From an uncultured Spartobacteria bacterium (GTDB taxonomy: Bacteria > Verrucomicrobiota > Verrucomicrobiia > Chthoniobacterales > Chthoniobacteraceae): DNA of 37,457 nt. Every line of letters begins with the position of its first letter. The stretch's first letter is position 1. Both the position numbers and the translations under genes were made by a program. A model generated the notes under the pieces. The model was given only the letters and a program-made list of their open reading frames with translations, was not told the DNA's origin and searched no databases. The stretch spans positions 1-37,457 of the forward strand of contig CAIYUV010000177.1 of the NCBI GenBank assembly GCA_903929475.1, read 5' to 3'. Shown here piece by piece: positions 5,541-37,079 of the stretch.

Positions 5541-5859
5541 CCAGCCTCAAAGAGGCCGGTGTTTCCCCACGCCTGTCCGCATGGTTGCCAGGGCAGCTTG
5601 GGAAATGGCCCGGCGCTTCCGCGATGGTTTTTCTTGCGTGTGATGAGAAAAGTCCCGGCAGGGATGGCAAGGACGGCCATTCCGTCGCGGCGGGGCTTGC
5701 CTATGTAGAGGGAAACATTTCCCCCGCACGGAATCGCCTGGCCATTTCCGGCAAAATTTCCCAGCAAAGTTGTCAGAAAACAGGCTCCGTAGCAGAAACA
5801 GATAGGGAAAGTGGGGACAAACCCGATGAAAGTGGGGACAGAAAAGAGCGGTGTTATCC
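5541..5859. other. Gene-free spacer before array 2
   Basis: No convincing gene. A short hairpin (GCCTC 5544-5548 with GAGGC 5552-5556) directly follows the stop of the prenyltransferase-like gene but lacks a T-run. At 5807 and 5828 the sequence GAAAGTGGGGACA occurs twice with a spacing of exactly 21, the same period as the array that follows. The open frames here are readings through low-complexity sequence. Confidence 0.5.
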
Positions 5860-6090
5860 CACACGACCGCCCTCCTACTCCACACGACCGCCCTCCTACT
5901 CCACACGACCGCCCTCCTACTCCACACGACCGACCTCCCTCCCCACACGACCGACCTCCCCCTCCACACGACCGACATCCCTCTCCACACGAACGACATT
6001 CCTCTCCACACGAACGACCTCACTTTCCACACGAACGACCTCACTTTCCACACGAACGACCTCCCTTTCCACACGAACGACCTCCCTTTC
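5860..6090. repeat. 21-bp tandem repeat array 2 (11 units)
   Basis: Eleven consecutive units of exactly 21 bp start at 5860. Each begins CACACGAMCG followed by a C/T-rich half. The units change in steps along the array: the first three share one variant, the next few are intermediates, and the last five have CACACGAACGAC. This gradient is what unequal exchange or slippage leaves. Read on the minus strand it gives degenerate heptapeptides such as VWKGRSF. A partial unit follows at 6091. No dyad as clear as in the other arrays is seen. Confidence 0.95.
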
Positions 6091-6103
6091 CACATTGGCG
6101 CTT

Positions 6104-14882: not shown

Positions 14883-14902
14883 CCTCGATACAGTGAACAT
14901 GC

Positions 14903-15017
14903 CTCACGCAAAGACGCTAAGACGCAAAGAAGCAGCGAATGAAGCAGGACACCCGTCCAGCATATGGGCGAAAAAGTTGTTTCGCACTGCCTTTGCGCGT
15001 CTGCGTCTTTGCGTGAG
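14903..15017. repeat. Palindromic ACGCAAAG repeat element between dapB and folK
   Basis: Left arm 14903-14929 (CTCACGCAAAGACGC, then AAGACGCAAAG) and right arm 14991-15017 are imperfect inverted copies of 27 bases. The outer 15 are identical and only a few inner ones differ. Each arm is itself a run of ACGCAAAG/GACGCAAAG near-repeats, and the loop is about 60 bases. Similar 'ACGCAAAGACGCAAAG' palindromes occur in many bacterial genomes. In RNA it would form a long stem between dapB and folK and could act as a processing or termination point. Confidence 0.8.
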
Positions 15018-15047
15018 ACCTCTGTTTTCCATAGCCGGATTTAGCAG

Positions 15048-17968: not shown

Positions 17969-18445
17969 CTACGCCACCCTCGGCGGCAGCAGCGGAGGCC
18001 GCTCCGCGCGGACCTCTCCCCTCATCGCGATGCGCGCAAACTCTCCATCCACTCTCGGCGGAAAAACCGCCGTCACTGCACGCTCGCAAATCACATCGAG
18101 CTTCACCTTCGACAACTCCTGCGACGGCTGCTGCTCCTTCTGCTTTCCATCGGAGATGCGCTTGCACATCGCGCACGGATGCGCGCCGTCAAACGTCGTC
18201 TTCACCGCCTCGCCGAAGGACGCCGCCTGCGTCCGCTCCACCAGCATCTGCGTCCAAGCCACCGATTGCAGCAGCGCCCAATGCCCCCCGATGCTCGCCA
18301 CAAGTGCGAGCACCACGAGCAGTCTGCCAAATCTGGCGGCGGCGAAAATCACGGCGGCGTTTTGGCGAAGCAGCGCGCCCGTGTCAACCGCTCGAAACAT
18401 CCCCCGCACTCGCACAACCATCGGAATCAGACGCACCACTCCCAC
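17969..18445 (-). CDS. Small membrane protein with HPCAMCK motif
   Basis: 158 aa. The start is uncertain: an ATG at 18400 removes a basic leader and may be better. One hydrophobic segment covers about residues 41-55 (RLLVVLALVASIGGHWALLQSVAW). It is followed by an exported helix (MLVERTQAASFGEAVKTTFDG) and then AHPCAMCKRI with Cys91 and Cys94. The Lys/Gln-rich tail ends in PPLLPPRVA. The HPCxxCK block is one I have seen beside Cys-rich barrel genes in Verrucomicrobiota, but I know of no assigned function. It is the first gene of a two-gene minus-strand unit with the barrel, 176 bases apart, and is divergent from the TPR/EF-hand gene. Confidence 0.75.
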   Translation of the reverse strand: MGVVRLIPMVVRVRGMFRAVDTGALLRQNAAVIFAAARFGRLLVVLALVASIGGHWALLQSVAWTQMLVERTQAASFGEAVKTTFDGAHPCAMCKRISDGKQKEQQPSQELSKVKLDVICERAVTAVFPPRVDGEFARIAMRGEVRAERPPLLPPRVA

Positions 18446-18563
18446 CGGCGGCAGCAGCGCTTTGTCATTTGTCTTCGGGCGGGGAAATCACTATCACTCC
18501 CGCAGCTTCAAACGCGCCGCCCTTGTTTCCGCTCTTCGCGCTCTTCACCAAAAAACCAATCCC

Positions 18564-19721
18564 ATGAACAAAACACTCACCATCCTCCTCATCGCCATCT
18601 CCGCCTGCATTCCGGCGTATGGCAAGTATATCATCCCGGAACTCAAAGACGTTCCGCTGGAGCGCCTCATCGCTAACATCGCCGAGCGCGTGAAGGCAGA
18701 ACCCGCAAACAGTGAAGCCCTCCACCAACTCGCACGCACGCACGCCATGGCCTATGCGAAAAATATCGCGGATGCTGATTCGGTGAAGACATGGAACGGA
18801 TGGGACAAAAAGGAGCCCGCCACGCCCTACTTCCGGACCGATAGTCCCCACGTCCCCTACGTCAGCGGTGCCAAAGCCGCGAACGAGAAGCGAACGGATT
18901 CTGCCAAGGCTCACCTTGCCACCGCCATCGAGACCTACAAGAAGGCCCTAGCCATCAAGCCCGACGACAACACCATCAAGCTCGGTCTCGCATGGTGCCA
19001 GGAACAGGCCGGAGAAAAGGCTGCCGCCATCGCCCTTTATCGTGAAGTCGCCACATCTGCATGGACAACAGAGAGCAAAAGCACGAGCGCGGGGCTCGGA
19101 GATTTCCTCTATGTCGAGACCGCAGGCTATCTCATCCCTCTCCTCGACCCCACGAAAGATGCCGCCGAAATCGCCGTGCTCAATGAAAGAAAAGAGAAAC
19201 TCCAGCGCCTCATGCGTGATATGACCCCCATCATCATCCCCCTCGCCGAACACACCGCCCTCGCCCCGCTCATCAACCGCCACGCCCGCGTCCGCTTCGA
19301 CCTCGACGGCACCGGGCGCCAGCTCGAATGGCAGTGGATCACCCCCGACGCCGCATGGCTCGTCTTCGACCCGCAGCACACCGGCAAAATCACCTCCGCC
19401 ATCCAGATGTTTGGCAACCGCTCCTTCCTCCTCTTCTGCCCCGACGGCTACCAAGCCCTCTCCCTCCTCGACGACAACCGCGACGGCACCCTCACCGGCC
19501 ACGAACTCGACGGCCTCGCCCTCTGGCGCGACGCCAACGCCAACGGCATCTCCGATCCCGGCGAAGTCCGCCCCGTCACCTCCCACGGCATCACCGCCCT
19601 CAGAATCCGCAGCCAGCAGCACGAAACCGGCATCCCCTTCTCCCCCAACGGCGTCACCTTCCAAGACGGCACCACCCGCCCCACCTACGACATCATCCTC
19701 CAAACCCGCCCGCCCCGGTAA
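18564..19721 (+). CDS. Secreted TPR protein with EF-hand-like calcium loops
   Basis: 385 aa from the ATG at 18564, the start that gives the signal MNKTLTILLIAISACIPAYG. Residues 25-165 are TPR-like (LERLIANIAERVKAEPANSEALHQLART and AIETYKKALAIKPDDNTIKLGLAWCQEQAG). Residues 240-385 are a beta-rich domain with two calcium-loop motifs, LDDNRDGTLTGHEL and RDANANGISDPGEV, as in EF-hand/dockerin-like sequences. It is probably periplasmic or surface-attached. The final codons (QTRPPR then stop) lie in the sequence that is repeated at 36690-36716 beside the other copy of the same type of 21-bp array. Confidence 0.8.
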   Translation: MNKTLTILLIAISACIPAYGKYIIPELKDVPLERLIANIAERVKAEPANSEALHQLARTHAMAYAKNIADADSVKTWNGWDKKEPATPYFRTDSPHVPYVSGAKAANEKRTDSAKAHLATAIETYKKALAIKPDDNTIKLGLAWCQEQAGEKAAAIALYREVATSAWTTESKSTSAGLGDFLYVETAGYLIPLLDPTKDAAEIAVLNERKEKLQRLMRDMTPIIIPLAEHTALAPLINRHARVRFDLDGTGRQLEWQWITPDAAWLVFDPQHTGKITSAIQMFGNRSFLLFCPDGYQALSLLDDNRDGTLTGHELDGLALWRDANANGISDPGEVRPVTSHGITALRIRSQQHETGIPFSPNGVTFQDGTTRPTYDIILQTRPPR

Positions 19722-19790
19722 AGCCCCGCAGCCCCCGCCCGCCCCATCAGGCTACAGAGGAGCTTCTCTGAGGAAAAGAGGAGCGTTATC
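19722..19790 (+). repeat. Conserved leader of array 3 (copy at 36717-36785)
   Basis: This segment, which includes GCTACAGAGG, CTTCTCTGAGGAAAAGAGG and AGCGTTA, is nearly identical to 36717-36785, which precedes array 5. The similarity also extends upstream over the last codons of the preceding gene. The few differences would mostly change amino acids in the minus-strand open frame that covers both copies, which argues that it is not a conserved protein. Confidence 0.85.
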
Positions 19791-20000
19791 GGACGCCGCA
19801 ATAACGTTATCGGACGGCGGAGTAACGTTATTGGACGGCGGAATAACGTTATTGAACGGCGGAGTAACGTTATTGGACGGCGCAATAACGTTATCGGACG
19901 GCGCAATAACGTTATCGGACGGCGGAGTAACGTTATCGGACGGCGCAATAACGTCATTGGACGGCGGAATAACGTTACTGAACAGCGGAATAACGTCACT
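19791..20000. repeat. 21-bp tandem repeat array 3 (10 units, TAACGTTA core)
   Basis: Ten units of exactly 21 bp run from 19791. Each is a GGACGGCGGA-like half followed by a TAACGTTA core; units 8 and 10 have TAACGTCA. TAACGTTA is a perfect palindrome, so eight of the ten units place one every two helical turns. One plus frame reads LDGGITL heptads and a minus frame reads FRRPITL heptads, neither interrupted because the period is a multiple of three. Array 4 starts 17 bases later. Confidence 0.95.
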
Positions 20001-20017
20001 GGAACCAACGGTGTGTT

Positions 20018-20332
20018 CCCTGTGAAGTTCTTGGATTACCCTGCACCTTCCATGGGCTTCCCTGCGCTTTCCATGGACGACCCCGCCGGGAATTTGGACG
20101 ACCCCGCGTCAAAGTTTGACGACCCCGCCAAGTTTTCTGACGACCCCGCCAAGTTTTTGGACGAACCCGCGCCAAGTTTGGAGCACCCCGCCAAGTTTTT
20201 GGACGAACCCGCCGGGAATTTGGAGCACCCCGCGCCAAGTTTTTGGCACCCCGCCAGGTTTTTGGACGACCCCGCCAAGTTTTTGGAGCACCCCGGTGGA
20301 AATTTGGAACACCCCGCGCGAAAAGGGGGCGG
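20018..20332. repeat. 21-bp tandem repeat array 4 (14-15 units, phased T-tracts)
   Basis: Units of exactly 21 bp start at 20018. The consensus has CCCCGCC, then AAGTTTTTGG, then ACGA. The first three units are divergent (two contain CCATGG) and the last is broken at CGCGCGAAAAGGG. CCAAGTTTTTGG has CCAA and TTGG arms, so most units again carry a dyad. In the best-conserved units the T-run recurs every 21 bases, which can curve DNA. Plus-frame heptads read LDDPAKF and LEHPAKF. The array is followed by CCAACAGAGAAGG at 20337. Confidence 0.95.
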
Positions 20333-20625
20333 GCCTCCAACAGAGAAGGACGTTCTCCGTCTCTCGAACTCCACTCTCCCAACTTCAAAGCCCGGCATAA
20401 TAAGCGGCAACGACACTGCCACCAATGCCCTCCATGCTTTCCCTGCCGCCAATCCGCATCCCGTCGCGCCCATGCACGCAGGCTTGAATCCGGCCAGGCA
20501 AGTCGCGCACTGTCACGGCGTGCCGCTTGTAAAAAATACTGAAAACGGAGTCCGCCCGATGCCCTGTCGCCAACCCGGCGGGCGCGCGCCCCGGCCCGCC
20601 AGTCCGCAGACGCCCGCGTGAACGC
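20333..20625. other. Gene-free stretch between array 4 and the next gene
   Basis: It starts with CCAACAGAGAAGG (20337). A minus-strand frame across 20385-20663 has a moderately protein-like end (DLPGRIQACVHGRDGMRIGG), but it overlaps the next gene and I recognise no family. The palindrome GGGCGCGCGCCC is at 20580-20591. I see no RNA gene. Confidence 0.4.
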
Positions 20626-20994
20626 ATGAGATACTTCGCAAACCTCACCGCTGGGCGGATCATCCTTTGGTGCTACCTCATCTGGTATCTCTTTTTCACG
20701 GCGCGCTACTTTGATCCGAGCCGGGCGCTGTGGCTCACGTCGCTCGGGCTGTCCGGGATTATCGGCATCGCGCTGCTCATCAGCACATGGACGGGAAAAG
20801 GTGCGCTCGGCGGCTGGCAGACGTTCCGACTTTTCCTCATGCCGTTTTGTGTTTCGAGTTTCTCCGCGCTGGTGAAAGGGCGCGGCTTCACGCTCGTCTT
20901 CTCGCCGAGCGTGAGGGAAAACCTGATCGCCCTCGGATGCTGCGCGGCATTCTGCGCGTTCGTGGCGGGGATGAAGCTCGGGCGGCGCTCGTGA
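20626..20994 (+). CDS. Small integral membrane protein, unknown function
   Basis: 122 aa with four hydrophobic segments: IILWCYLIWYLFFTARYF (about 12-29), SLGLSGIIGIALLIST (39-54), FRLFLMPFCVSSFSALV (67-83) and LIALGCCAAFCAFVAGM (99-115). Charged loops fit an inner-membrane protein. The FLMPFCVSSFSALVKGRGF segment recurs, as I recall, in uncharacterised bacterial membrane proteins, so the gene is probably real. No functional residues stand out. It is isolated: repeat array upstream, palindromic element directly downstream. Confidence 0.75.
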   Translation: MRYFANLTAGRIILWCYLIWYLFFTARYFDPSRALWLTSLGLSGIIGIALLISTWTGKGALGGWQTFRLFLMPFCVSSFSALVKGRGFTLVFSPSVRENLIALGCCAAFCAFVAGMKLGRRS

Positions 20995-21016
20995 ATGGCC
21001 CGGAGGGCCAGCAGAA

Positions 21017-21198
21017 ATTAGCCGGTGGTGGAGCGAAGCGAGAACCACCGGATCAGGTTCCAAACAACAACCGCCCCGGAGGAGGCGGCGGAGCCATCAA
21101 ACACACGTGGCTTCCCGCGCCCCATCCGGGGCGTATGTCCTTTATTGGACGCGATCCGGTGGTTTTCGCTCGCTGCGCTCTCTTCACCACCGGCTAAT
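21017..21198. repeat. 182-bp imperfect palindrome (MITE-like element)
   Basis: The arms are inverted copies: the left one (21017-21054) begins ATTAGCCGGTGGTGG and ends ACCACCGGATC; the right one (21153-21198) begins GATCCGGTGGTT and ends CCACCGGCTAAT. The right arm has an insertion of a few bases. Each arm is itself a hairpin (CCGGTGGT...ACCACCGG). The loop holds another stem, CGCCCC with GGGGCG. Just upstream, GGCCC GGA GGGCC (20997-21009) forms a further hairpin. No transposase is present. It occupies the gap between the membrane gene and the ABC ATPase. Confidence 0.8.
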
Positions 21199-21291
21199 CT
21201 CCTTTCACCCTCCGGGTGAGCGAACACATTCATCACGAAGCGACCCGTGTTACGCCGCAAAAAAAACGGCTGCACTTTTACTCAATCCGCT

Positions 21292-22107
21292 CTAGCTCGC
21301 GGTGCCAGCGGGAGTGTTGCCGGCGAAGTGGAGCAGTTCGAGGATCTCGCCGCGCAGATGCAGAAATTCCGGACTGTTGCGCTGGCGCGGGCGTTCCAGC
21401 GTGACGGCGATGATGCGCTCAATGCGGCCCGGACGCGGACTCATGATCACGATGCGGTCGCTCATATAGATCGCTTCATCAATGTCGTGCGTGACGAGCA
21501 GCATCGTAGTGCGGCGCGACTGCCAGAGCCGAAGCACTTCGTCCTGCATGCGCATCCGCGTGAAGGCGTCGAGAGCGCCGAGCGGTTCGTCGAGCAGGAG
21601 GATTTTGGGATGATTGATCAAGGCGCGCGCGAGGGCGACGCGCTGCGCCATGCCGCCGGAGAGATGATGAGGAAAGGCCTTGGCGAATGATTCGAGATCC
21701 ACGAGACGCATGAACTCATCCACCTCGGCGCGTTTCTTGTGGAGCAGCCCGCGAGCGACGAGGCCCGTCTGGATGTTGCCACGCACGGTGAGCCACGGAA
21801 AAAGATTGGGGTCTTGAAACACGAGGCCGCGCTCGGCGCTCGGATCGGTGATCGGCTCGGCTCCGACGTAAAGTTCGCCGGCATCGGGGCGGTCGAGCCC
21901 GGCGATGAGACGCAGCAGAGTGGATTTTCCGCAGCCGCTCGGGCCGATGATCGAGATCAATTCCCCGGCTGCAACGGTGAGCGACACACCGTCGAGCGCG
22001 AGCGTGGGCGCTGTCGCGCTATCCGTTGCTGAGAAGCTCTTGCTGATATTCTCGATCCGCAGCGAGGAGCCTTCGGGGGTGATGTCGGGATGGAGAGCGT
22101 CTACCAT
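21292..22107 (-). CDS. NitT/TauT-type ABC transporter ATP-binding protein
   Basis: 271 aa from the ATG at 22107, which overlaps the end of the permease gene by 7 bases. Visible: LRIENISKSF at the N-terminus, Walker A GPSGCGKST (55-63), Q-loop VFQDPNLFPWLTV, signature LSGGMAQRVALARAL, Walker B KILLLDEPLGALD, and H-loop LLVTHDIDEAIYMSDRI. The closing MSPRPGRI is typical of the nitrate/sulfonate/taurine group. It powers import with the permease and the lipoprotein encoded upstream. The substrate is not determined by this subunit. Confidence 0.95.
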   Translation of the reverse strand: MVDALHPDITPEGSSLRIENISKSFSATDSATAPTLALDGVSLTVAAGELISIIGPSGCGKSTLLRLIAGLDRPDAGELYVGAEPITDPSAERGLVFQDPNLFPWLTVRGNIQTGLVARGLLHKKRAEVDEFMRLVDLESFAKAFPHHLSGGMAQRVALARALINHPKILLLDEPLGALDAFTRMRMQDEVLRLWQSRRTTMLLVTHDIDEAIYMSDRIVIMSPRPGRIERIIAVTLERPRQRNSPEFLHLRGEILELLHFAGNTPAGTAS

Positions 22108-23141
22108 TTGATCACTCCTTTTTGCCAGACGAGCACGCGGTCGCGCACTTTGAAGAGCATGGTCATGATCGTCGAAAAGAACGCAGCCATGACCACGAGC
22201 GCGGCATAAACTTTCCCATACTCGGCCCAGCCCTGCGCCCAAGTCACATACCAGCCGAGGCCGGATTTCACGCCGACCTGCTCCGCCACGACGAGGGTCA
22301 GAAACGATGCGCCAAGCCCCATGAACAACCCGATGAAAATATTCGGCATCGCCGCAGGGATGGCGACGCGGAAGATGAGAAAGGCGCGGCCCGCGCCGAG
22401 CGTGCGTGCGACATCGAGATATGATGCTCGGGTGTTGGAGATGCCGGACGCTGTGAGCATCGTCACCGGGAACCAGACCGCGAGCGCGATGAGCCCGACG
22501 GCGGAGAACATGGCGGAGGGCGAGAGGATCATCGCCAGCGGTATCCATGCGGTCGCTGGAATCGGGCCGACGATCTTGAGCACCGGCATTCCCCAATAGC
22601 GCGCAAATTCAAACCAGCCAATGCAGACGCCCGTGACGAGGCCTAGCACCACGCCAAGCGCGTAGCCGCAGAGCAGAAGCAGGAGCGAGTGCCACGTGCT
22701 GTCAAAGATTAGCGCACGATCATTGATGAGACTTTGCAACACGCCCGCAGGGCTTGGAAAATACGGCATCGGGAGCCATTGAAAGCCTGCGGTGATCACT
22801 TCCCACACGCAGAGCAGAACGACGGCGGCTGCGAGGATGGGGCACATGTCGCGCATCCACCGCCGGAGACCCTGCCAGAACGTCTGCACCGCCAGTGCGG
22901 TGATTGCCACGCCGAGAACGATCCCGAGAAAAATCGAGAAAGACTGCGTCTCCACCGGTGGCTCTTTCTTCGACACGAGCAGATGCAGTGCAAACGCGAG
23001 CGCCGTGGCGACCGGGACGGCGAGGAGAAATCTCAGCGGTGTCTTCGCCCCGCCCGGCGCTGCGCTTCCTTTTACGACACCACCCGCCTCGCCGCTTGAG
23101 GAGCGGGCAGGTGGCTCCATGACTTCCTGTGAACCGTTCAT
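22101..23141 (-). CDS. NitT/TauT-type ABC transporter permease with long N-terminal extension
   Basis: 346 aa from the ATG at 23141, which overlaps the stop of the binding-protein gene (ATGA). Residues 1-35 are a polar Gly/Ser/Pro tail. Two extra membrane segments (about 38-58 and 70-88) precede the usual permease core, and the core (95-346) has six more. The cytoplasmic coupling loop includes TLGAGRAFLIFRVAIPAAMPNIFIG, the EAA-like region of this family, then EQVGVKSGLGW. Most TauC/SsuC-type permeases are about 250-280 aa, so the first 75 residues are an addition. Gene order SBP, permease, ATPase with two overlaps indicates one transcript. Confidence 0.92.
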   Translation of the reverse strand: MNGSQEVMEPPARSSSGEAGGVVKGSAAPGGAKTPLRFLLAVPVATALAFALHLLVSKKEPPVETQSFSIFLGIVLGVAITALAVQTFWQGLRRWMRDMCPILAAAVVLLCVWEVITAGFQWLPMPYFPSPAGVLQSLINDRALIFDSTWHSLLLLLCGYALGVVLGLVTGVCIGWFEFARYWGMPVLKIVGPIPATAWIPLAMILSPSAMFSAVGLIALAVWFPVTMLTASGISNTRASYLDVARTLGAGRAFLIFRVAIPAAMPNIFIGLFMGLGASFLTLVVAEQVGVKSGLGWYVTWAQGWAEYGKVYAALVVMAAFFSTIMTMLFKVRDRVLVWQKGVIKW

Positions 23142-24274
23142 TTCGCTATCTTCGATGCTGGCGAGCAGCATGTCGCGATCAGAAACGGAGTGCCGATGGT
23201 GGCCAGTTCCAATGCGAGCCGCTGTGGTTGATCCGCAGGAATCTGCCCGTCTGCGAGCTTATCAACCTGCAATGTTTGCAGCCACGCGTCGCTGACGCCG
23301 TCGAGATGAATGAATGCTTTCTTCGCGAGTGCGGCCACATCGGTGGTGGGGCTGAGCATCCCGGCGGACTTCATTTCAGCGGCTGCGGAACTGACTGCAT
23401 TTTCTCCGCCGGAAACGCTCGGGACATAATTCAGATTGCCGAGGGCCGTCGTGTTCAACTCGGGATTGGAAGCGAGATACTTCTTCTCGACCGACAGACG
23501 CGCCGCAGCGCGCGGATTGGTTTCCACCCACTTGGCGCCTTTGAGCAATGCACGCGTGGCAGCGGCGGCCTGCTTGGGATTGTTGGCGGCGTATTTGCCG
23601 TTGATGATCACCGCGCAGCAGTATTCGTCCTTGTAAGGCGCATCCTTCGCCTGATCGGCAACGTTGCGCACCTTGCCCTCGGCGAGCAGCAGGCTGCCGA
23701 TGGGTTCGGAATCCGCGATGGCATCAATCTCCCCCTTTTGCAATGCCAGCCCCAACTCGCCCGCAGGAAAGACGCGCCACTCGATCTCCTTCATCGCGTC
23801 AACGCCGTTCGCGCCCAGAACGCGATTGGCGAAAATGAACGGCGGCGTGCCCATTCCGGGAACACCAATGCGTTTGCCGCGCAGGTCTTTTACCGAGTGG
23901 ATGGGACTGTTCACGCCCGTCTGCACGCGCAGACAGCCCTTGTGGATGCCCGCACTGATCTTCACGTCCAGCCCCTGCTCAATCGGCTTGAGAAAATACA
24001 TGATGAGGTGATGCGTGATGTCGAACCCGCCGAGCGCGAGCACGTCCTTGTATTTCGACCACTCGCATTTCACCAACTCCACATCGAGGCCCTCCTCTTT
24101 GAAGAATCCATTTTCCACCGCACTGAAGATCGGCGCTTCGCAGGTGATGCCGATGTAGCCGACCCGGATTTTCGTCAGCCCTTCCGCGTTCGTTTCAGGG
24201 GCGGACTTTTTGTTGCAGCCCGTAAAGGCGAACGCGCCAAGCACGGCGAATGCGATCAGTTTGTAGGTATTCAT
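23138..24274 (-). CDS. ABC transporter substrate-binding lipoprotein (NMT1/THI5-like)
   Basis: 378 aa. The signal ends in the lipobox FTGC with Cys20, so the protein is anchored in a membrane facing the periplasm. The body has the NMT1/SsuA pattern: IRVGYIGITCEAPIFSAVENGFFKEEGLDVELV, GGFDITHHLIMYFLKPIEQGLDVK, SVKDLRGKRIGVPGMGTPP and LALQKGEIDAIADSEP. Proteins of this fold bind sulfonates, nitrate, pyrimidine precursors and other small anions or heterocycles; I cannot name the ligand. The gene is first in the operon and divergent from a LysR regulator, 114 bases apart. Confidence 0.92.
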   Translation of the reverse strand: MNTYKLIAFAVLGAFAFTGCNKKSAPETNAEGLTKIRVGYIGITCEAPIFSAVENGFFKEEGLDVELVKCEWSKYKDVLALGGFDITHHLIMYFLKPIEQGLDVKISAGIHKGCLRVQTGVNSPIHSVKDLRGKRIGVPGMGTPPFIFANRVLGANGVDAMKEIEWRVFPAGELGLALQKGEIDAIADSEPIGSLLLAEGKVRNVADQAKDAPYKDEYCCAVIINGKYAANNPKQAAAATRALLKGAKWVETNPRAAARLSVEKKYLASNPELNTTALGNLNYVPSVSGGENAVSSAAAEMKSAGMLSPTTDVAALAKKAFIHLDGVSDAWLQTLQVDKLADGQIPADQPQRLALELATIGTPFLIATCCSPASKIAK

Positions 24275-24320
24275 GGAAGTGGCTGGATGTTTAGTGGAAC
24301 AATGACGGAGAGCAACCCTA

Positions 24321-24357
24321 ACCGAATCCCCGCTTGTAACGGAAATAGCGTTTCGGT
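24321..24357. promoter_or_regulatory. Candidate LysR-type operator
   Basis: Nested dyads lie in the divergent spacer. ACCGAA (24321-24326) is inverted as TTCGGT (24352-24357). Between them, AACG-N7-CGTT (24338-24352) forms a second, tighter palindrome with the AT-rich centre GAAATAG. Its size and position, 31 bases upstream of the LysR start, are what LysR-type regulators usually bind. Confidence 0.5.
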
Positions 24358-24388
24358 ATGAGCCTCATGCCATGCCGTTATCAGTGCC

Positions 24389-25297
24389 ATGGAACTAAGA
24401 CACCTCCGCTATTTTCAAGCTGTCGCCGAGGAACTCAGCTACTCGCGGGCTGCACGCCGTCTCCACATCGCTCAGCCCGCGCTCAGCCGCGCCGTGCAGG
24501 AAATCGAGCACACACTCGGCGCAAAACTTTTCGACCGCACCCGCAACAGCGTGCGCCTGACACCTGCCGGGCGCGTGCTGCTTCACGAGGCCGCGTTGAT
24601 CTTCGAGCGATGGGACGAGGCCATGCGCCGCGTGCGCCGCACCGCTGTTGGCGAGGAGGGTGAGTTGCGCCTCGGCTACATCGGGCCGCCGACGCAGCCA
24701 TTTCTCGGACGCGTGCTCGGCGAATACCGCCGGCGATACCCGCTCGTCTCCATCCATCTCGAAGAGCGCACACCGGAGCGCGTTTGGGAAATGGTCGCGA
24801 AAGGCCGCCTCTCCCTCGGCCTCACGCGCCCTGTGCCTATGTCCGAAACGCTCGGACTCCGCACCATCCTCCTGCGCGAAGAACGCCTCGGCATCGTCGT
24901 CCCGCCAAAACACAAGCTCGCGGGGAAAAAGAGCATCCCCTGGAGCTTGCTTAAAAGCGAACCACTGATCGTCCTCGCGCGCCGCGAAGGCGCGGGCCTG
25001 CACGACGCGATGCTCGCGGGATGCCGCGCGGCGGGTTTCGCACCGAAGCTCGCGCACACGCCGAGCCTGATCGGCGCCGTGCTCAGCTACGTCGAGGCGG
25101 GCGCGGGAGTCGGCATCGTCACCGACAGCATCGTCACGCCCGAGCACCCGCTGCGCTTCGTTCCGCTCAGGCCCGCAGTCACCGTCCCCCTCGTGCTCGT
25201 GTGGCAGGAAGACGAAGACACGCCGCCCGTGCAGCGGTTCCGCGAATTGATCGTCAACTGGCAGCGCGCCGGAAAACTCTGGAGCCGCAAAGGCTGA
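24389..25297 (+). CDS. LysR-family transcriptional regulator
   Basis: 302 aa. Residues 1-60 are the winged helix-turn-helix: MELRHLRYFQAVAEELSYSRAA, then LHIAQPALSRAVQEIE and LGAKLFDRTRNSVRLTPAG. Residues 90-295 are the effector-binding fold, with LRLGYIGPPTQPFLGRVL at its start. It is transcribed away from the ABC operon and very likely controls it in response to the transported compound, as is usual for this arrangement. BenM/CatR-like regulators share the HLRYFVAVAEE start. Its effector is unknown. The stop is 27 bases from the stop of the convergent metallopeptidase gene. Confidence 0.95.
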   Translation: MELRHLRYFQAVAEELSYSRAARRLHIAQPALSRAVQEIEHTLGAKLFDRTRNSVRLTPAGRVLLHEAALIFERWDEAMRRVRRTAVGEEGELRLGYIGPPTQPFLGRVLGEYRRRYPLVSIHLEERTPERVWEMVAKGRLSLGLTRPVPMSETLGLRTILLREERLGIVVPPKHKLAGKKSIPWSLLKSEPLIVLARREGAGLHDAMLAGCRAAGFAPKLAHTPSLIGAVLSYVEAGAGVGIVTDSIVTPEHPLRFVPLRPAVTVPLVLVWQEDEDTPPVQRFRELIVNWQRAGKLWSRKG

Positions 25298-25324
25298 AGC
25301 AGTCCCGCCCTTGCGCACTTCCGC

Positions 25325-26062
25325 TCACTGCTTCGCCGCCTTCGGCTTCGAGCGACCCGGCAGCGGGCCCCAGATTTCCTCCATCAACGCAAAAATCTCC
25401 GGCTCCGCCTGCTTCAGTTCGCCCGCTACGAACGGGTAAAAATCATTCGAGCCGAAATAGCTCTCCGTCATCTCCGCAAAGAACTCCTTCTCGTTCGTCA
25501 GCCCGTAGTGCTCGCGCATCCCGCCCGGGCTTGTGAGCACCGACTTGTATTTCCCGCTGTCGCGAAATTTCTCCCACGCCGCCTTCACCCGCGCATCGTT
25601 GAAACCAATCACCTGATCGTGATATGCGTGCGAAAGCTCGTGCAACACCACCCACGGCATCCGGTGGTTTTCAAACGGCGAGAGAAAATCCTCCGCCTCG
25701 GGGATGTGGACGCACTTCGCCAGCGATTCGCTGTAGCCGTGCTCCTTCAGCCAGTCAGGAGCCGGATGATACTGCATCGGGCGCAAACCCGCGTAATCCA
25801 GATCCAGTTCGATGACGACCGCCCGCAACTTCTCCAGCGCCTTCTCCGGCACCACGATGGTGATCGCGACGAGCCGCGCATTCAGCAACTTCAGCGCACG
25901 CTCTCCCATCGCAGCGCCTTCGCCTTTCAAAAGCCGATCATCCACACGCACTGTCCATCCCTCGATGTTGCGCGTGGTGTGAGCCTTCGGAATGCCCGCC
26001 TTCTCCTCCGCGAATGCGTGGATGGAAAAGAGCGACAGCAGCGTGATGAAGATGTGTTTCAT
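25325..26062 (-). CDS. Secreted zinc metallopeptidase-like protein (HELSH)
   Basis: 245 aa from the ATG at 26062 (MKHIFITLLSLFSIHAFA signal). The zinc motif VVLHELSHAYHDQ has HELSH at 141-145 (His141, Glu142, His145), and a candidate third ligand lies in EKEFFAEMTESYFG (191-204). The glutamate-led FAEM helix about 50 residues after the HExxH motif is the gluzincin pattern. RVDDRLLKG and PMQYHPAPDWLKEHGY are conserved-looking segments I do not recognise. The substrate is unknown. Its leader shares a 24-base segment with that of the next upstream gene (27829). Confidence 0.8.
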   Translation of the reverse strand: MKHIFITLLSLFSIHAFAEEKAGIPKAHTTRNIEGWTVRVDDRLLKGEGAAMGERALKLLNARLVAITIVVPEKALEKLRAVVIELDLDYAGLRPMQYHPAPDWLKEHGYSESLAKCVHIPEAEDFLSPFENHRMPWVVLHELSHAYHDQVIGFNDARVKAAWEKFRDSGKYKSVLTSPGGMREHYGLTNEKEFFAEMTESYFGSNDFYPFVAGELKQAEPEIFALMEEIWGPLPGRSKPKAAKQ

Positions 26063-26090
26063 AATTGCACGCATCCATGCACCGCCCGGC

Positions 26091-26114
26091 ACCCGCACAC
26101 AAGCCGCGCCTGCG
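26091..26114 (-). other. Shared leader element, copy 1
   Basis: A 24-base segment beginning ACCCGCACACAAGCCGC on the plus strand is repeated with one mismatch at 27858-27881. On the minus strand it reads CGGCTTGTGTGCGGGT and lies 28 bases upstream of the metallopeptidase ATG. A weaker match, CTTGGGTGCGGGCACAACC, lies in the leader of the gene starting at 31762. It could be a transcribed leader element or a promoter-proximal repeat. Confidence 0.6.
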
Positions 26115-26134
26115 TTTTACCCTGCGCGTTTCTT

Positions 26135-27829
26135 TTACTTCGTCGGCGCGCCGGCGTTGCCTTCGTCGAGATACGTCCGGTCGCCGAGCGTGGTGATTTT
26201 CAAATACTGCCGCCACTTGCCCGCGCGGGCTTCGATGGTTTTCGTCTCGGGCTTGGGTGCGTGGAAATCCACGGCGGGCAGCGCTTCGAAGAGAACGCGT
26301 CCGTCCATCTTGTCGCCTCCGGGAATGCCGAGCAGATGGAGAATCGTGGGCGCCACATCCACGTTCGCCGTGGGTAGCGGGTCGCGGAAACCGGCGCGGA
26401 TGTCCGGCCCAGCGGCGACGAGCGTGTTGTGGATGTCGTAGCGGCTGAGCGACGCGTGAACGCCGTTTCCCCCGACCTGACCTTCGGACTTAAATATCCC
26501 GCGCGTGCCGTTGATGTTCTTCGCGTTGGTCCAGCGGATGGAAAAGATCACATCCGGCGAGTCGGGCGTTTCGATGCGCGCGGCGCTCAGCGGGAAAGTC
26601 CCCGGCAATTCGCTGCGCGTAAAAATGGGGCCGGCGAAATCGCTCGCTTGCAGGAAAGCCACCAGCTTCTGCACCCACTCCGCGTCGTGATTTGGCACGT
26701 AGAACTGGATGCTCCCGCCGAGCGAGACTTGCAGGATTTCGCCCGGCATCGGCGTCTTGTGGTAGCCGCGCACGATGTGGAATCCCGCCTTGTTCATCCG
26801 CGTGCCGAGATCCATCCCGCCGTCCGTGGTGGAGAAACCGTGGTCGGACACGACGAAAATATCGGTCTTATCCAGCACACCCTTTTTTTGCAGCGCGGCG
26901 ATGACCATGCCCAGTTCGTTGTCGCTGTCGCGAATCGCCGCGAGCGCGACGGGCGAGCCGGGCTGCGTCATGTGCTGGCTGAAATCCGGGTCGCCGAGCC
27001 ACAGCGTCGTGAAACGCGGGATGCCCTCGCGCCACAGCTCCTCCACGAGCGCGCGCGTCGTCCATCCATTTTGTGCAGTATTCGGAGAAGGCGGCACTCC
27101 GCGAACCGGCGTCGGCACAGCGCTCACGATTTTCTCCGCAGTGGTTGCGGGAGCCGCTGGCGCGTTCGCAGGAACATCGCCCGCAGCCTTCTCCATCGCG
27201 GGCGCCTTCGGCTGCGCACCACCGGGAGGCGGCGGAAACTTGCCGAGCGCCGCGACGATCGGCTCCAGCGCCGATGCGGGATAAGCCTTCCCCGCAAAGA
27301 GAATGGTCGAGGCATTCTGCTCCGGGCGATTCGGCGAACGGTCGTGGAGCAGCGCCACGGATTTCGTCCCCGCGACCACCGTGCGCTGGCCCGCCTGCTG
27401 GATGATTTCTGCCAGCGTCGGCACGCGGATGTATTTCCCCTCGCGCACCTCGTCGCCCTTCTTGCAAGTCTCCGCAGACTCCATCGCCACCGGGTGATAG
27501 GGGTGGATGTCCGGGCGGAACTCCACATTGGCCAGGATGCCGTTGTGCATCGGATAGCAGCCGGTTGCGATGGCCGTCCCGTTCACCTCCGTCGAAGTCA
27601 CATAAACCGAATGCTGGTCCGCAAAAAAAGTCCCCCGTTTAGCCAGCGCATCCAGCACAGGCGTCGTATCCGCGCGGACAAAATCAGGCCGCATCCCGTC
27701 CCAAACCACCAGCACCACATGCTCCGCCTTCCCCTTGAAAGGCTCGGCCTTCCCATTGAGAGGCTCCTCCGCCCACACGGGCGACACGGCGACAAGGACG
27801 GCGAAAAGCGAGAGGCGAAAATGTTTCAT
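26135..27829 (-). CDS. Secreted alkaline-phosphatase-superfamily hydrolase (phosphodiesterase/pyrophosphatase type)
   Basis: 564 aa from the ATG at 27829, with signal MKHFRLSLFAVLVAVSPVWA. Visible: VVWDGMRPDF with metal ligand Asp44, the nucleophile region YVTSTEVNGTAIATGCYPMHNG (76-97) with the candidate Thr/Ser at 78-80, LWLGDPDFSQHMTQPGSP (Asp and His ligands), VVSDHGFSTTDGG (Asp-His pair) and a late HASLSRYDIHNTL with the final His. This is the type I phosphodiesterase/nucleotide pyrophosphatase layout. A Pro/Ala-rich linker (about 205-255) interrupts the fold. The physiological substrate is unknown. It is followed by the metallopeptidase gene, each with its own leader. Confidence 0.88.
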   Translation of the reverse strand: MKHFRLSLFAVLVAVSPVWAEEPLNGKAEPFKGKAEHVVLVVWDGMRPDFVRADTTPVLDALAKRGTFFADQHSVYVTSTEVNGTAIATGCYPMHNGILANVEFRPDIHPYHPVAMESAETCKKGDEVREGKYIRVPTLAEIIQQAGQRTVVAGTKSVALLHDRSPNRPEQNASTILFAGKAYPASALEPIVAALGKFPPPPGGAQPKAPAMEKAAGDVPANAPAAPATTAEKIVSAVPTPVRGVPPSPNTAQNGWTTRALVEELWREGIPRFTTLWLGDPDFSQHMTQPGSPVALAAIRDSDNELGMVIAALQKKGVLDKTDIFVVSDHGFSTTDGGMDLGTRMNKAGFHIVRGYHKTPMPGEILQVSLGGSIQFYVPNHDAEWVQKLVAFLQASDFAGPIFTRSELPGTFPLSAARIETPDSPDVIFSIRWTNAKNINGTRGIFKSEGQVGGNGVHASLSRYDIHNTLVAAGPDIRAGFRDPLPTANVDVAPTILHLLGIPGGDKMDGRVLFEALPAVDFHAPKPETKTIEARAGKWRQYLKITTLGDRTYLDEGNAGAPTK

Positions 27830-27857
27830 GATCTCCAGCATCCTTGCCCAACCCGAC

Positions 27858-27881
27858 ACCCGCACACAAGCCGCACCTGCG
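27858..27881 (-). other. Shared leader element, copy 2
   Basis: Matches 26091-26114 in 23 of 24 bases. It lies 28 bases upstream of the phosphodiesterase ATG at 27829, the same distance as copy 1 from its gene. On the minus strand it reads GCAGGTGCGGCTTGTGTGC followed by GGGTG. The equal position in two secreted-hydrolase leaders suggests a role in expression. Confidence 0.6.
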
Positions 27882-27939
27882 ACTTCGTTGGTGGAAAAAG
27901 TAGTCAGCTACTTCTGCAGCTAACGTGCGCTCTCTAACG

Positions 27940-28105
27940 CGGCGGGTTCTTGGTGCCGTCGGGGAAGTGATGTCGGTCTTCCGCAATGCGGCGAGCTTCT
28001 CCACTTTTGCGTCCAGAGCGACGAGCACATCGAGCGCCGGATCGAGCCGCTCGATGCTTCCATCATCACCGGCACTAGGCGCGGAGGCGCGCGTCTGCTT
28101 ATGTG
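27940..28105 (-). pseudogene. Possible remnant of an SMP-30/gluconolactonase-like N-terminus
   Basis: On the minus strand an open frame reads DDGSIERLDPALDVLVAL, then DAKVEKLAALRK, before turning into unrelated codons near 27950. 'IxRLDPALDxLV..DAKxEKLA' is how I remember the N-terminus of many SMP-30/gluconolactonase-like proteins, where 'GFKFTEGP' should follow; here it does not. There is no start codon in a proper context and no downstream domain. It is therefore probably a leftover gene end. The rest of 27830-28165 has no gene. Confidence 0.35.
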
Positions 28106-28165: not shown

Positions 28166-30211
28166 ATGAATCATGGGCGATTGAAATTTCGGTTGGAAGC
28201 GACGGCCACGGGATCGCGGGCGAGGGCGGCGACTTTCCACACGGCGCACAATGAAGTGCGCACGCCGCTCTTCATGCCGGTGGGCACGCAGGCGACGGTG
28301 AAGGGGCAGCTCACGCAATCGCTGGAGGATGCAGGGTCGCAGATCCTGCTAGCGAATACTTACCACCTGCTGCTGCGTCCGGGGCCGGAGGTGTTTCGCA
28401 GCACGGGCGGGATTCATGGGTTCATGAGTTGGAAAAATTCCGTGCTCACTGATTCGGGCGGGTTTCAGATTTTCTCGCTGCCGCATTCACGCTCGATGAC
28501 CGAGCAGGGCGCTGCGTTTCAAAGTCACATTGATGGACGCACGATTCTGCTCAGCCCCGAGTTGAGCATCGAGACGCAGAAGGCCATTGGCAGCGACATT
28601 ATGATGGCGCTGGATCAGTGCATCCCCTCGACGGCGGACGAAGCGACGGCGCGCGCTGCGCTTGGAATCACGAATCGCTGGGCGGCGCGCAGTCTCGCGG
28701 CACGTGGAGATTCGCAGCAGGCGCTTTTTGCCATCGTGCAGGGCGCGCTATTTCCAGAGCTGCGGCGCGAAAGTGCAGCCGGTTTGTGCGAGATGCCGTT
28801 CGATGGATACGCCATCGGCGGCCTTGCTGTCGGCGAGAGTCGGAGCGAACGACAGGACACTTGTGAACTCACCGCGCAACTTCTCCCGCAGGATCTTCCG
28901 CGCTACCTCATGGGTGTAGGCACGCCGCTCGATCTGCTCGAAGCAGTGCATCGCGGCGTGGACATGTTTGACTGCATCATTCCCACACAAGTCGCGCAAC
29001 GCGGCGGCGCGTTCACCTCGCGCGGGTTTCTGCAATTGCGTCGCGGCGTGTATAAATTTTCCGAGGACAAACTCGATCCGCTCTGCAACTGCCCCACGTG
29101 TGCACGCTACTCCCGCGCTTATCTGCATCACCTCACGAAGAGCAATGAACACCTCGGCTGGCAGCTCATCGGACAGCACAACATCTATTTTTACCACCAG
29201 CTCATGCGCGAAATCCGGCAGAGCATCTTCGAGGATCGCTTCCTCGAACTCTACCGCGAAAAGCGCTCATTTCTCCACGAGTCGGACATGGACAATCCGA
29301 TCCACGTGCAAAAGCCCGGGAAGAAAATGGCGTTCCACCTCGGCAACTACGAAGTGCACCGCGCTCCACAGGGCTTCGCCAGTATCCGGCAGATTTCCTC
29401 CGGCGAAGTCATGCACTCGCGCACGCCGCCGATGGTGGAGGCGCACCAGCTTTACATCGAACAGTCCAACCTCGCCGAACGTCTGCGTCTTGCTGCGAAT
29501 GAAAACACGGAGACCGCCGCGCCGTTGGTGATCTGGGATGTTGGCCTCGGCGCTGCCGCCAATGCCATGTCCGCGATTCTTTGCTACGAAGCGCAAGCCA
29601 CAGCGGGCCCGGTGCGACCGATGCACGTCATCAGTTTTGAAAACGACCTCAATCCGCTGAAGCTCGCCTTCATGCACAATCGCGAATTCACCTACCTCCG
29701 CCACAGCGCCATCGGCGGCATCCTCGGCGTTGGCCTGTGGCATTCGCCGAAACACACCGGCCTGCGCTGGACCCTCGTGCAGGGCGATTTTCTGGAAAAG
29801 ATACCCGCCGCTCCAGCGCCGCCGGATGTGATTTTCTTCGACATGTTTTCGAGCAAGACCGACGCCGACCAGTGGACGCTCAGCGCATTCCAAAAAATCT
29901 TCGCCGCGTGCGAAGAACGCGCCGTCGAGCTTTTCACCTACACATGCTCCACGCCCGCGCGCGCCGCGCTGCTCGTTGCAGGATTCCATCTCGCGAAAGG
30001 ACGCGCCACCGTGGACAAAGTGGACACCACCATCGCGCTCACACCCGCCGCCGCGCCCATCGCAAAACAACGCAGCCACGAATTCCTCGGTGCCGAGTGG
30101 TTTGGAAAATGGACCCGCTCCAGCGCGAAGTTCCCCGCCGACGTGCCGCAGGAAGAGCACCCATCCTTCGAGCAAACCATCCGCTCGCACCCGCAGTTCA
30201 AAGGTCTTTGA
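28166..30211 (+). CDS. tgt: tRNA-guanine transglycosylase fused to an MnmD-like methyltransferase
   Basis: 681 aa from the ATG at 28166 (MNHGRLKFRLEATATGSRAR); a typical Tgt is about 370-390. Residues 1-385 are Tgt, which exchanges guanine 34 for preQ1 in GUN-anticodon tRNAs. Visible: LTDSGGFQIFSL with Asp96, FAIVQGALFPELR, AIGGLAVGE, the nucleophile Asp269 in VDMFDCIIPT, and zinc ligands Cys307, Cys309, Cys312 and His338. Residues 390-650 look like the MnmC1/MnmD methyltransferase (PF05430): VIWDVGLGAAANAMSAI (455-471), SFENDLNPLKLAF (490-502), PPDVIFFDMFSSKTDADQW (552-570) and FTYTCSTPARAALLVAGF (590-607). That enzyme forms mnm5U34. Both halves look intact. Confidence 0.9.
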   Translation: MNHGRLKFRLEATATGSRARAATFHTAHNEVRTPLFMPVGTQATVKGQLTQSLEDAGSQILLANTYHLLLRPGPEVFRSTGGIHGFMSWKNSVLTDSGGFQIFSLPHSRSMTEQGAAFQSHIDGRTILLSPELSIETQKAIGSDIMMALDQCIPSTADEATARAALGITNRWAARSLAARGDSQQALFAIVQGALFPELRRESAAGLCEMPFDGYAIGGLAVGESRSERQDTCELTAQLLPQDLPRYLMGVGTPLDLLEAVHRGVDMFDCIIPTQVAQRGGAFTSRGFLQLRRGVYKFSEDKLDPLCNCPTCARYSRAYLHHLTKSNEHLGWQLIGQHNIYFYHQLMREIRQSIFEDRFLELYREKRSFLHESDMDNPIHVQKPGKKMAFHLGNYEVHRAPQGFASIRQISSGEVMHSRTPPMVEAHQLYIEQSNLAERLRLAANENTETAAPLVIWDVGLGAAANAMSAILCYEAQATAGPVRPMHVISFENDLNPLKLAFMHNREFTYLRHSAIGGILGVGLWHSPKHTGLRWTLVQGDFLEKIPAAPAPPDVIFFDMFSSKTDADQWTLSAFQKIFAACEERAVELFTYTCSTPARAALLVAGFHLAKGRATVDKVDTTIALTPAAAPIAKQRSHEFLGAEWFGKWTRSSAKFPADVPQEEHPSFEQTIRSHPQFKGL

Positions 30212-30334: not shown

Positions 30335-30979
30335 ATGAAAACACTCAGCAATCTCTTTGAAAAAAACCGGGCATGGGCCGAGCGCATCCGGCAGAAGGAC
30401 CCCGGGTTTTTTGAAAAACTCGCACACCAGCAATCGCCCAGCTACCTGTGGATCGGCTGCTCCGACAGCCGCGTGCCCGCCAACGAAATCGTGGACCTCC
30501 TCCCCGGCGAACTCTTCGTCCACCGCAACATCGCCAACATCGTCGTCCACACCGACCTGAACTGCCTCTCCGTCATGCAATTTGCCGTGGATATCCTCAA
30601 GGTGCGCCACATCATCGTCTGCGGTCACTACGGATGCAGCGGCGTCCGCGCCGCGTTGCGCAACGACCGAATCGGCCTCAGCGACAACTGGCTCCGCCAC
30701 GTCCAGGACGTGCGCGAAAAACACACCCGCCGCCTCGCCGCCGAGCAGGGCGAAACCGCTGCCGCCAACCGCCTCTGCGAACTCAACGTCATCGAACAAG
30801 TCGCCAACGTCTGCCAGACCACCATCGCACGCGACGCATGGGAACGCGGCCAGGAACTCACCGTCCACGGCTGGGTATATGGGTTGAAAGACGGCCTCCT
30901 CCGCGACTTGAAAACCACCATCACCGGCGCAGAAGAACCCGCCAAGATGCACGAGGCCGCACTCGCTGCGCTGGCTTAA
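30335..30979 (+). CDS. can: Beta-class carbonic anhydrase
   Basis: 214 aa, usual size for a bacterial beta carbonic anhydrase, cytoplasmic, interconverting CO2 and bicarbonate. Visible: WIGCSDSRVPANEIV with zinc ligand Cys42 and the Asp44-Arg46 dyad, LFVHRNIANIV (60-70), and ICGHYGCSGV-like VCGHYGCSGV with zinc ligands His98 and Cys101, then ARDAWERGQELTVHGWVYGLKDGLL near the end. All ligands are present. Bicarbonate supply would support the acetyl-CoA carboxylase also in this window. A damaged copy of its C-terminal 50 codons lies at 31849-32008. Confidence 0.96.
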   Translation: MKTLSNLFEKNRAWAERIRQKDPGFFEKLAHQQSPSYLWIGCSDSRVPANEIVDLLPGELFVHRNIANIVVHTDLNCLSVMQFAVDILKVRHIIVCGHYGCSGVRAALRNDRIGLSDNWLRHVQDVREKHTRRLAAEQGETAAANRLCELNVIEQVANVCQTTIARDAWERGQELTVHGWVYGLKDGLLRDLKTTITGAEEPAKMHEAALAALA

Positions 30980-31039
30980 AGCAACCGCACTGTCAGCGAA
31001 TGCTCTCATTCGCCCGGCACCAGCGCCAACGCACTTCCC

Positions 31040-31762: not shown

Positions 31763-31848
31763 AATAGTCTTTCTTGGTTGTGCCCGCACCCAAGAAATCG
31801 CGCCTCCCCCCACCTCTGCGCTTAAAATACTTTCCCTTTCACAAAAAC

Positions 31849-32008
31849 ACAATCGCTCGCGACACATGGGAGCGCGGGCAGGAACTCACCGCCCACGGCT
31901 GTGTCTATTTTTTGAAAGACGGTCTCCTCCGCGATTTGAACACCAGCATTACCGACGGCAGAGGAACCCACCAAAGTGCATGAAGACGCGCTCGCGGCGC
32001 TGGCATAA
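31849..32008 (+). pseudogene. Frameshifted C-terminal fragment of a carbonic anhydrase
   Basis: Translation from 31849 gives TIARDTWERGQELTAHG, then CVYFLKDGLLRDLNTSIT. This matches the carbonic anhydrase C-terminus TIARDAWERGQELTVHG onward. After DG, one extra base shifts the frame; the shifted frame reads EEPTKVHEDALAALA and a stop, matching EEPAKMHEAALAALA. About 41 of 52 positions agree by my count. The invariant-looking Trp and Gly of HGWVYG have become Cys and Phe. There is no start or zinc-binding part. It is a leftover of a duplicated or second carbonic anhydrase gene. Confidence 0.85.
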
Positions 32009-32070
32009 TGCAGGGAAAAATCGACAGCCCCTTATCTCACTCAATAAAAAACGGGCACCCTCTTCCGCGT

Positions 32071-36671: not shown

Positions 36672-36716
36672 ATGAAGCCGGTCGGCATCATCCATCAGAC
36701 CCGCCCGCCCCAGTAA
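36672..36716 (+). pseudogene. Tail-end remnant similar to the 3' end of the 18564-19721 gene
   Basis: The frame ends GIIHQTRPPQ and a stop, compared with DIILQTRPPR and a stop at 19721. The nucleotide match runs straight on into the shared array leader (36717-36785). No upstream homology to the rest of that gene is visible, so this is a short copied 3' end carried with the array cassette. Confidence 0.55.
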
Positions 36717-36785
36717 AGCGCCGCAGCCCCCGCCAGCCCCCTCGGGCTACAGAGGGGCTTCTCTGAGGAAAAGAGGAGCGTTACC
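36717..36785 (+). repeat. Conserved leader of array 5 (copy of 19722-19790)
   Basis: Nearly the same as 19722-19790, including GGGCTACAGAGG, CTTCTCTGAGGAAAAGAGG and AGCGTTA. It ends exactly where the first 21-bp unit begins, as in the other copy, so leader and array behave as one cassette. Confidence 0.85.
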
Positions 36786-37079
36786 GGACGGTGGAATGAA
36801 GTCATTGGACGGCGGAATGAAGTCATTGGACGACGGAATGAAGTCATTGGACGACGGAATGAAGTCATTGGACGGCGGAGTGACGTCATTGGACGGCGGA
36901 GTAACGTTATTGGATGGTGGAATAACGTTATTGGACGGCGGAATAACGTTATCGGACGGCGGAATAACGTTATTGGATGGTGGAATAACGTTATTGGACG
37001 GCGGAATAACGTTATTGGACGGCGGAATAGCGTTACTGGACGGCGGAATAACGTTACTGGACGGCGGAATAACGACCTG
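36786..37079. repeat. 21-bp tandem repeat array 5 (14 units)
   Basis: Fourteen units of exactly 21 bp start at 36786. All share a GGACGGCGGA half. The core changes in blocks: TGAAGTCA in units 1-4, TGACGTCA in unit 5, TAACGTTA in units 6-11 and 13, TAGCGTTA in unit 12. TGACGTCA and TAACGTTA are both perfect palindromes. The last unit decays to AACGACCTG. The unit is the same type as in array 3. Confidence 0.95.

Follow-up and report, generated by a model that had tools for sequence, protein, structure and literature searches.

The window analysed here, a whole stretch of 37,457 nucleotides, carries two adjacent genes of unrelated Pfam families whose leaders are copies of one stretch. Probably, in one lineage of a Verrucomicrobiota family, a start region of some 60 bp underwent a single local duplication as the two genes came to be neighbours, in the ancestor shared by this species and its sister G007. 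On the best reading, the find is an ordinary if neat local leader duplication, with both genes using copies of one expression signal. It would be a natural case in which leader, ribosome-binding region and start codon were copied together, as a complete gene-start unit, to an unrelated neighbour gene, and the sister species offers orthologous copies for comparison.

A direct repeat in register with two start codons

Both genes lie on the minus strand. The gene at 26135–27829 encodes a secreted type I phosphodiesterase/nucleotide pyrophosphatase-like protein of 564 aa (PF01663, E = 3e-32) and has the repeat on both flanks. That at 25325–26062 encodes a secreted HExxH metallopeptidase-like protein of 245 aa with a weak match, below cut-off, to PF07737; its residues H141, E142 and H145 are invariant among orthologs. 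The N-termini of both proteins are signal-peptide-like according to a simple rule.

Self-comparison of the window gave a gapless direct repeat of 60 bp on the minus strand, in which 27822–27881 (copy A) and 26055–26114 (copy B) are identical at 49 of 60 positions (82%). Copy A comprises the leader, the ATG and part of codons 2–3 of the phosphodiesterase gene, and copy B the same portions of the metallopeptidase gene. The best-matching part is a 16-mer that is exact at 26091–26106 and 27858–27873, both on the minus strand, and occurs only these two times in the window. It belongs to a core of 25 nt, CGCAGG[C/T]GCGGCTTGTGTGCGGGTG (27857–27881 in copy A and 26090–26114 in copy B), which is identical at 24 of 25 positions and ends 27 nt before both ATGs. 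The register relative to the start codon is the same in both copies: the match spans the ATG into codon 3 (ATGAAACA) and then stops. The copies are 1767 bp apart and bracket the phosphodiesterase gene exactly, copy B filling most of the 72-nt gap that separates the two genes. The sequence-only reading had reported a shared segment of 24 bases, 23 of them identical, 28 bases before each ATG. Such a segment is real, with these figures correct if the 24-mer ends with GGGT, and it proved larger than claimed, as part of the 60-bp repeat with its 24/25 core at 27 nt.

A chance similarity of the two leaders has nothing in its favour except the G+C-rich composition and is improbable in the extreme, given E-values of 2e-9 (window against window) and 3e-10 (BLAST, whole genome), the identical register to two start codons and the persistence of the repeat in G007. 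A chance origin of the repeat is excluded. Separately, an N-terminal extension of the proteins through the repeat, where an open frame runs from GTG codons at 27865 and 26098, was considered and judged unlikely: most species differences there would change an amino acid, and the ATG at the leader end begins a normal signal peptide.

Just upstream of copy A, a terminator-like hairpin with a T run (27903–27924, minus strand) might mark the end of an upstream transcript, the frequency of such sites being no higher than chance (3 versus 2.8 expected from shuffles). A similar sequence in G007 stands behind a leucine-rich-repeat-like gene. Should the hairpin work, the promoter would have to lie in the approximately 74 nt before the start codon, which are mostly repeat. 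In the same region, positions 27900–27996 form a remnant resembling the 3′ end of the leucine-rich-repeat-like gene found upstream of the G007 phosphodiesterase gene. Further on, at 28166–30211, a Queuine tRNA-ribosyltransferase domain (PF01702) is fused to a domain of Methyltransf_30 (PF05430), the family to which the methyltransferase portion of MnmC belongs. Position 34 of the tRNA would be the target of both activities.

Comparison with the sister genome and other relatives

The element was present in one of 10 genus genomes examined, the Chthoniobacteraceae MAG G007 (contig CANJNZ010000018.1), where it occurs twice, before the same two adjacent genes. A block of 2.67 kb (25328–27996) is 94% identical to G007 with rearranged flanks on both sides; the two species cease to be homologous near 27996, and nothing in the G007 stretch examined matched window positions 18355–25327. 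The phosphodiesterase and metallopeptidase orthologs are 97% and 93% identical, respectively. Copies A and B differ from their G007 counterparts at 3 and 4 of 60 positions, whereas paralogous leaders differ at 11–13 of 60. Thus, the duplication predates the species split.

We also compared divergence within the block. The first 21 nt of the core showed no change between species in both copies (0/42), versus 19/194 at other noncoding positions of the block; this lower divergence may hint at function, with a boundary picked post hoc and small numbers. Across the four leaders, a single column of the 21-nt core varies. One column changed in parallel, T to A, in both G007 copies.

No copy beyond G007 was detected in 213 genomes of the order, the next best match having E = 0.003. 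Similarly, among 80 metallopeptidase loci fetched from GTDB genomes, some with short flanks, the 79 loci other than that of G007 carried neither the leader nor, in the fetched flank, the phosphodiesterase gene (0 in each case). A genome with a single leader and just one of the two genes was likewise found neither among these order genomes nor among these loci. Phosphodiesterase relatives with 64–72% identity occur without the repeat leader in another genus of the family, and the closest relatives outside the sister belong to another genus of the family.

Genome-wide searches for a regulon

The leader had been proposed to be a regulatory site shared by genes for secreted proteins, with an enrichment before genes with signal peptides as the suggested check. 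Pattern and BLAST searches covered the entire genome (4.5 Mb, 295 contigs). With the 15-mer and up to 2 mismatches we obtained 17 matches versus 26 for a reversed control; the remaining 15 near-matches lay mostly within long open frames. The 25-nt degenerate core with 3 mismatches retrieved exactly two matches in the whole genome, both known copies, and BLAST with the whole leader yielded nothing above chance in the genome beyond these two. The core was also sought in viral contigs, with no match. Upstream statistics were drawn from 437 kb of the 4.5 Mb, where the 90 nt before each of 351 genes were scored with a matrix derived from all four leaders (two copies in each of two species). The real copies scored 38, the next best upstream region 12 and reverse-complement controls up to 11. 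The other 349 upstream regions, 69 of them signal-peptide-like, showed no leader enrichment, and signal-peptide-like genes did not score higher (Mann-Whitney p = 0.98). Sites enriched before several genes of this genome, as for a regulon operator, were therefore not seen in these regions, and the genome-wide searches together with the scored upstream regions lead us to reject the regulon reading. A seemingly shared regulatory leader need not signal a regulon.

No sigma-70-like promoter was recognised in the two leaders, and promoter motif discovery by two-block EM on 120 upstream regions performed no better than the reversed control, with no model learned.

A weaker relative had also been claimed in the leader of the peptidoglycan-binding gene (31762). 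This leader scored 1.1 bits with the matrix, a background value compared with 38 for the real copies and at most 11 for controls. What had been taken for a relative is a hairpin, TTTCTTGG-GTGC-GG-GCAC-AA-CCAAGAAA (31768–31795), unrelated to the repeat and mostly conserved in G007. Beyond the gene, 31848–32012 is an 82% copy of 30820–30983, where the carbonic anhydrase gene has its 3′ end, so that the peptidoglycan-binding gene is likewise bracketed by direct repeats; homology with G007 stops at 31846, just before this copy.

A probable local duplication, rival explanations and known systems

According to the favoured scheme, the duplicated unit would begin with a putative promoter, include the ribosome-binding region and reach as far as codon 3. 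Copy A would drive the phosphodiesterase gene, and copy B, between the genes, would give the metallopeptidase gene its own start region. The likely route would be tandem duplication or illegitimate recombination via the ATGAAA common to both starts, that is, promoter and start-site capture; recombination at this shared sequence would account for a repeat that ends at the start codons. As to short homology at a junction, the repeat ends at ATGAAACA, common to both starts, but the ancestral arrangement was not found in the genomes and loci searched. Three parts of this scheme are inferred: the presence of a promoter in the repeat, the route of recombination and which of the two start regions was copied. 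As a separate point, codon 3 (His) was considered as a clue to the donor gene and rejected as uninformative, since 5 metallopeptidase loci have His there, a frequency similar to that of other residues.

A far less likely account sees in the core an operator, or a special promoter, through which one transcription or sigma factor co-controls only these two genes, under conservation by selection. The near-invariance of the 21-nt core across the four leaders argues for it, and the parallel T to A change in both G007 copies would fit co-evolution or gene conversion. However, similarity runs on past the core as far as the start codon, more than an operator would require, the genome is devoid of other sites, and other species have the same metallopeptidase without a copy. 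With comparably low probability, duplication itself might have created a private two-gene regulon, the 21-nt operator or promoter having been copied together with the start codon and kept identical by selection or gene conversion; if this were true, phosphodiesterase and metallopeptidase would be co-controlled in one lineage.

Slightly less probable again is that the phosphodiesterase gene is an inserted cassette whose footprint, a target duplication or recombination site, is the pair of 60-bp repeats. In favour of this, they bracket the gene exactly, elsewhere the gene does not stand beside the metallopeptidase gene (80 loci, G007 being the sole exception), and apart from the sister its nearest relatives belong to another genus of the family. 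Yet 60 bp is very long for a target duplication, and register with two start codons is unexpected from blind insertion, short of a loss of the native start by the inserted gene. Moreover, the block showed no recognisable integrase or transposase, and its G+C content is ordinary (0.64 versus 0.61 for the window). The sequence-only reading had also raised an RNA element. A structured RNA leader common to both genes, such as a riboswitch-like element, appears very improbable: the position in the 5′ leader fits, but neither copy is predicted to fold more stably than its shuffled versions (z −0.20 and −0.22), the predicted structures differ, with no shared, unusually stable fold in the two copies, and no family exists across the genome, which holds two copies in 4.5 Mb.

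A putative mobile promoter is reportedly a similar sequence (about 80% or more) that immediately precedes two or more non-homologous genes of the same genome; the repeat, with 82% over 60 bp, conforms to this description. Repeats presumed to act as promoters are described as mobile promoters in PMC8049555; Matus-Garcia et al. 2012, on putative mobile promoters and ‘promoter propagation in prokaryotes’, is cited there and in PMC11111574. As in those systems, a short similar sequence precedes non-homologous genes and presumably carries a promoter, here a putative one. Unlike them, only two adjacent copies exist, here and in G007, the repeat runs through the start codon, and nothing points to dispersal or transfer. 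Neither the own genome nor G007 nor the 213 order genomes showed copies beyond those of one local duplication. The earlier suggestion of a repeat moving with gene starts finds support as far as a single local duplication shared with one sister species goes, and fails for a mobile or dispersed repeat.

In the laboratory, promoters are known to be captured through spontaneous tandem duplication at 9-bp microhomology (PMC11111574). There too, local duplication gives a neighbour gene an expression signal, and the ATGAAA shared here could be the microhomology. In contrast, the present case is natural and old and is seen as product alone, the intermediate with two full gene copies not being seen. 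In horizontal regulatory transfer (Oren et al. 2014, cited by PMC9944727), a regulatory region is also joined to a different gene; the present copy, in contrast, comes from the immediate neighbourhood within one genome, and no between-strain exchange was seen.

Other repeats were observed elsewhere. An intergenic inverted pair of a dispersed repeat (CTTTGCGTC...TTTGCGTGAG) lies at 14883–15047, with 18 genome matches at E <= 0.01. Tandem repeat arrays occupy 5858–6094, 19688–20317 and 36683–37074, the portion 19688–20003 being related to the last array (83%). Finally, at two further loci of the own genome (L193 and L200), ATTCACCATTCACTA-type repeats precede two other genes, in both orientations in L200.
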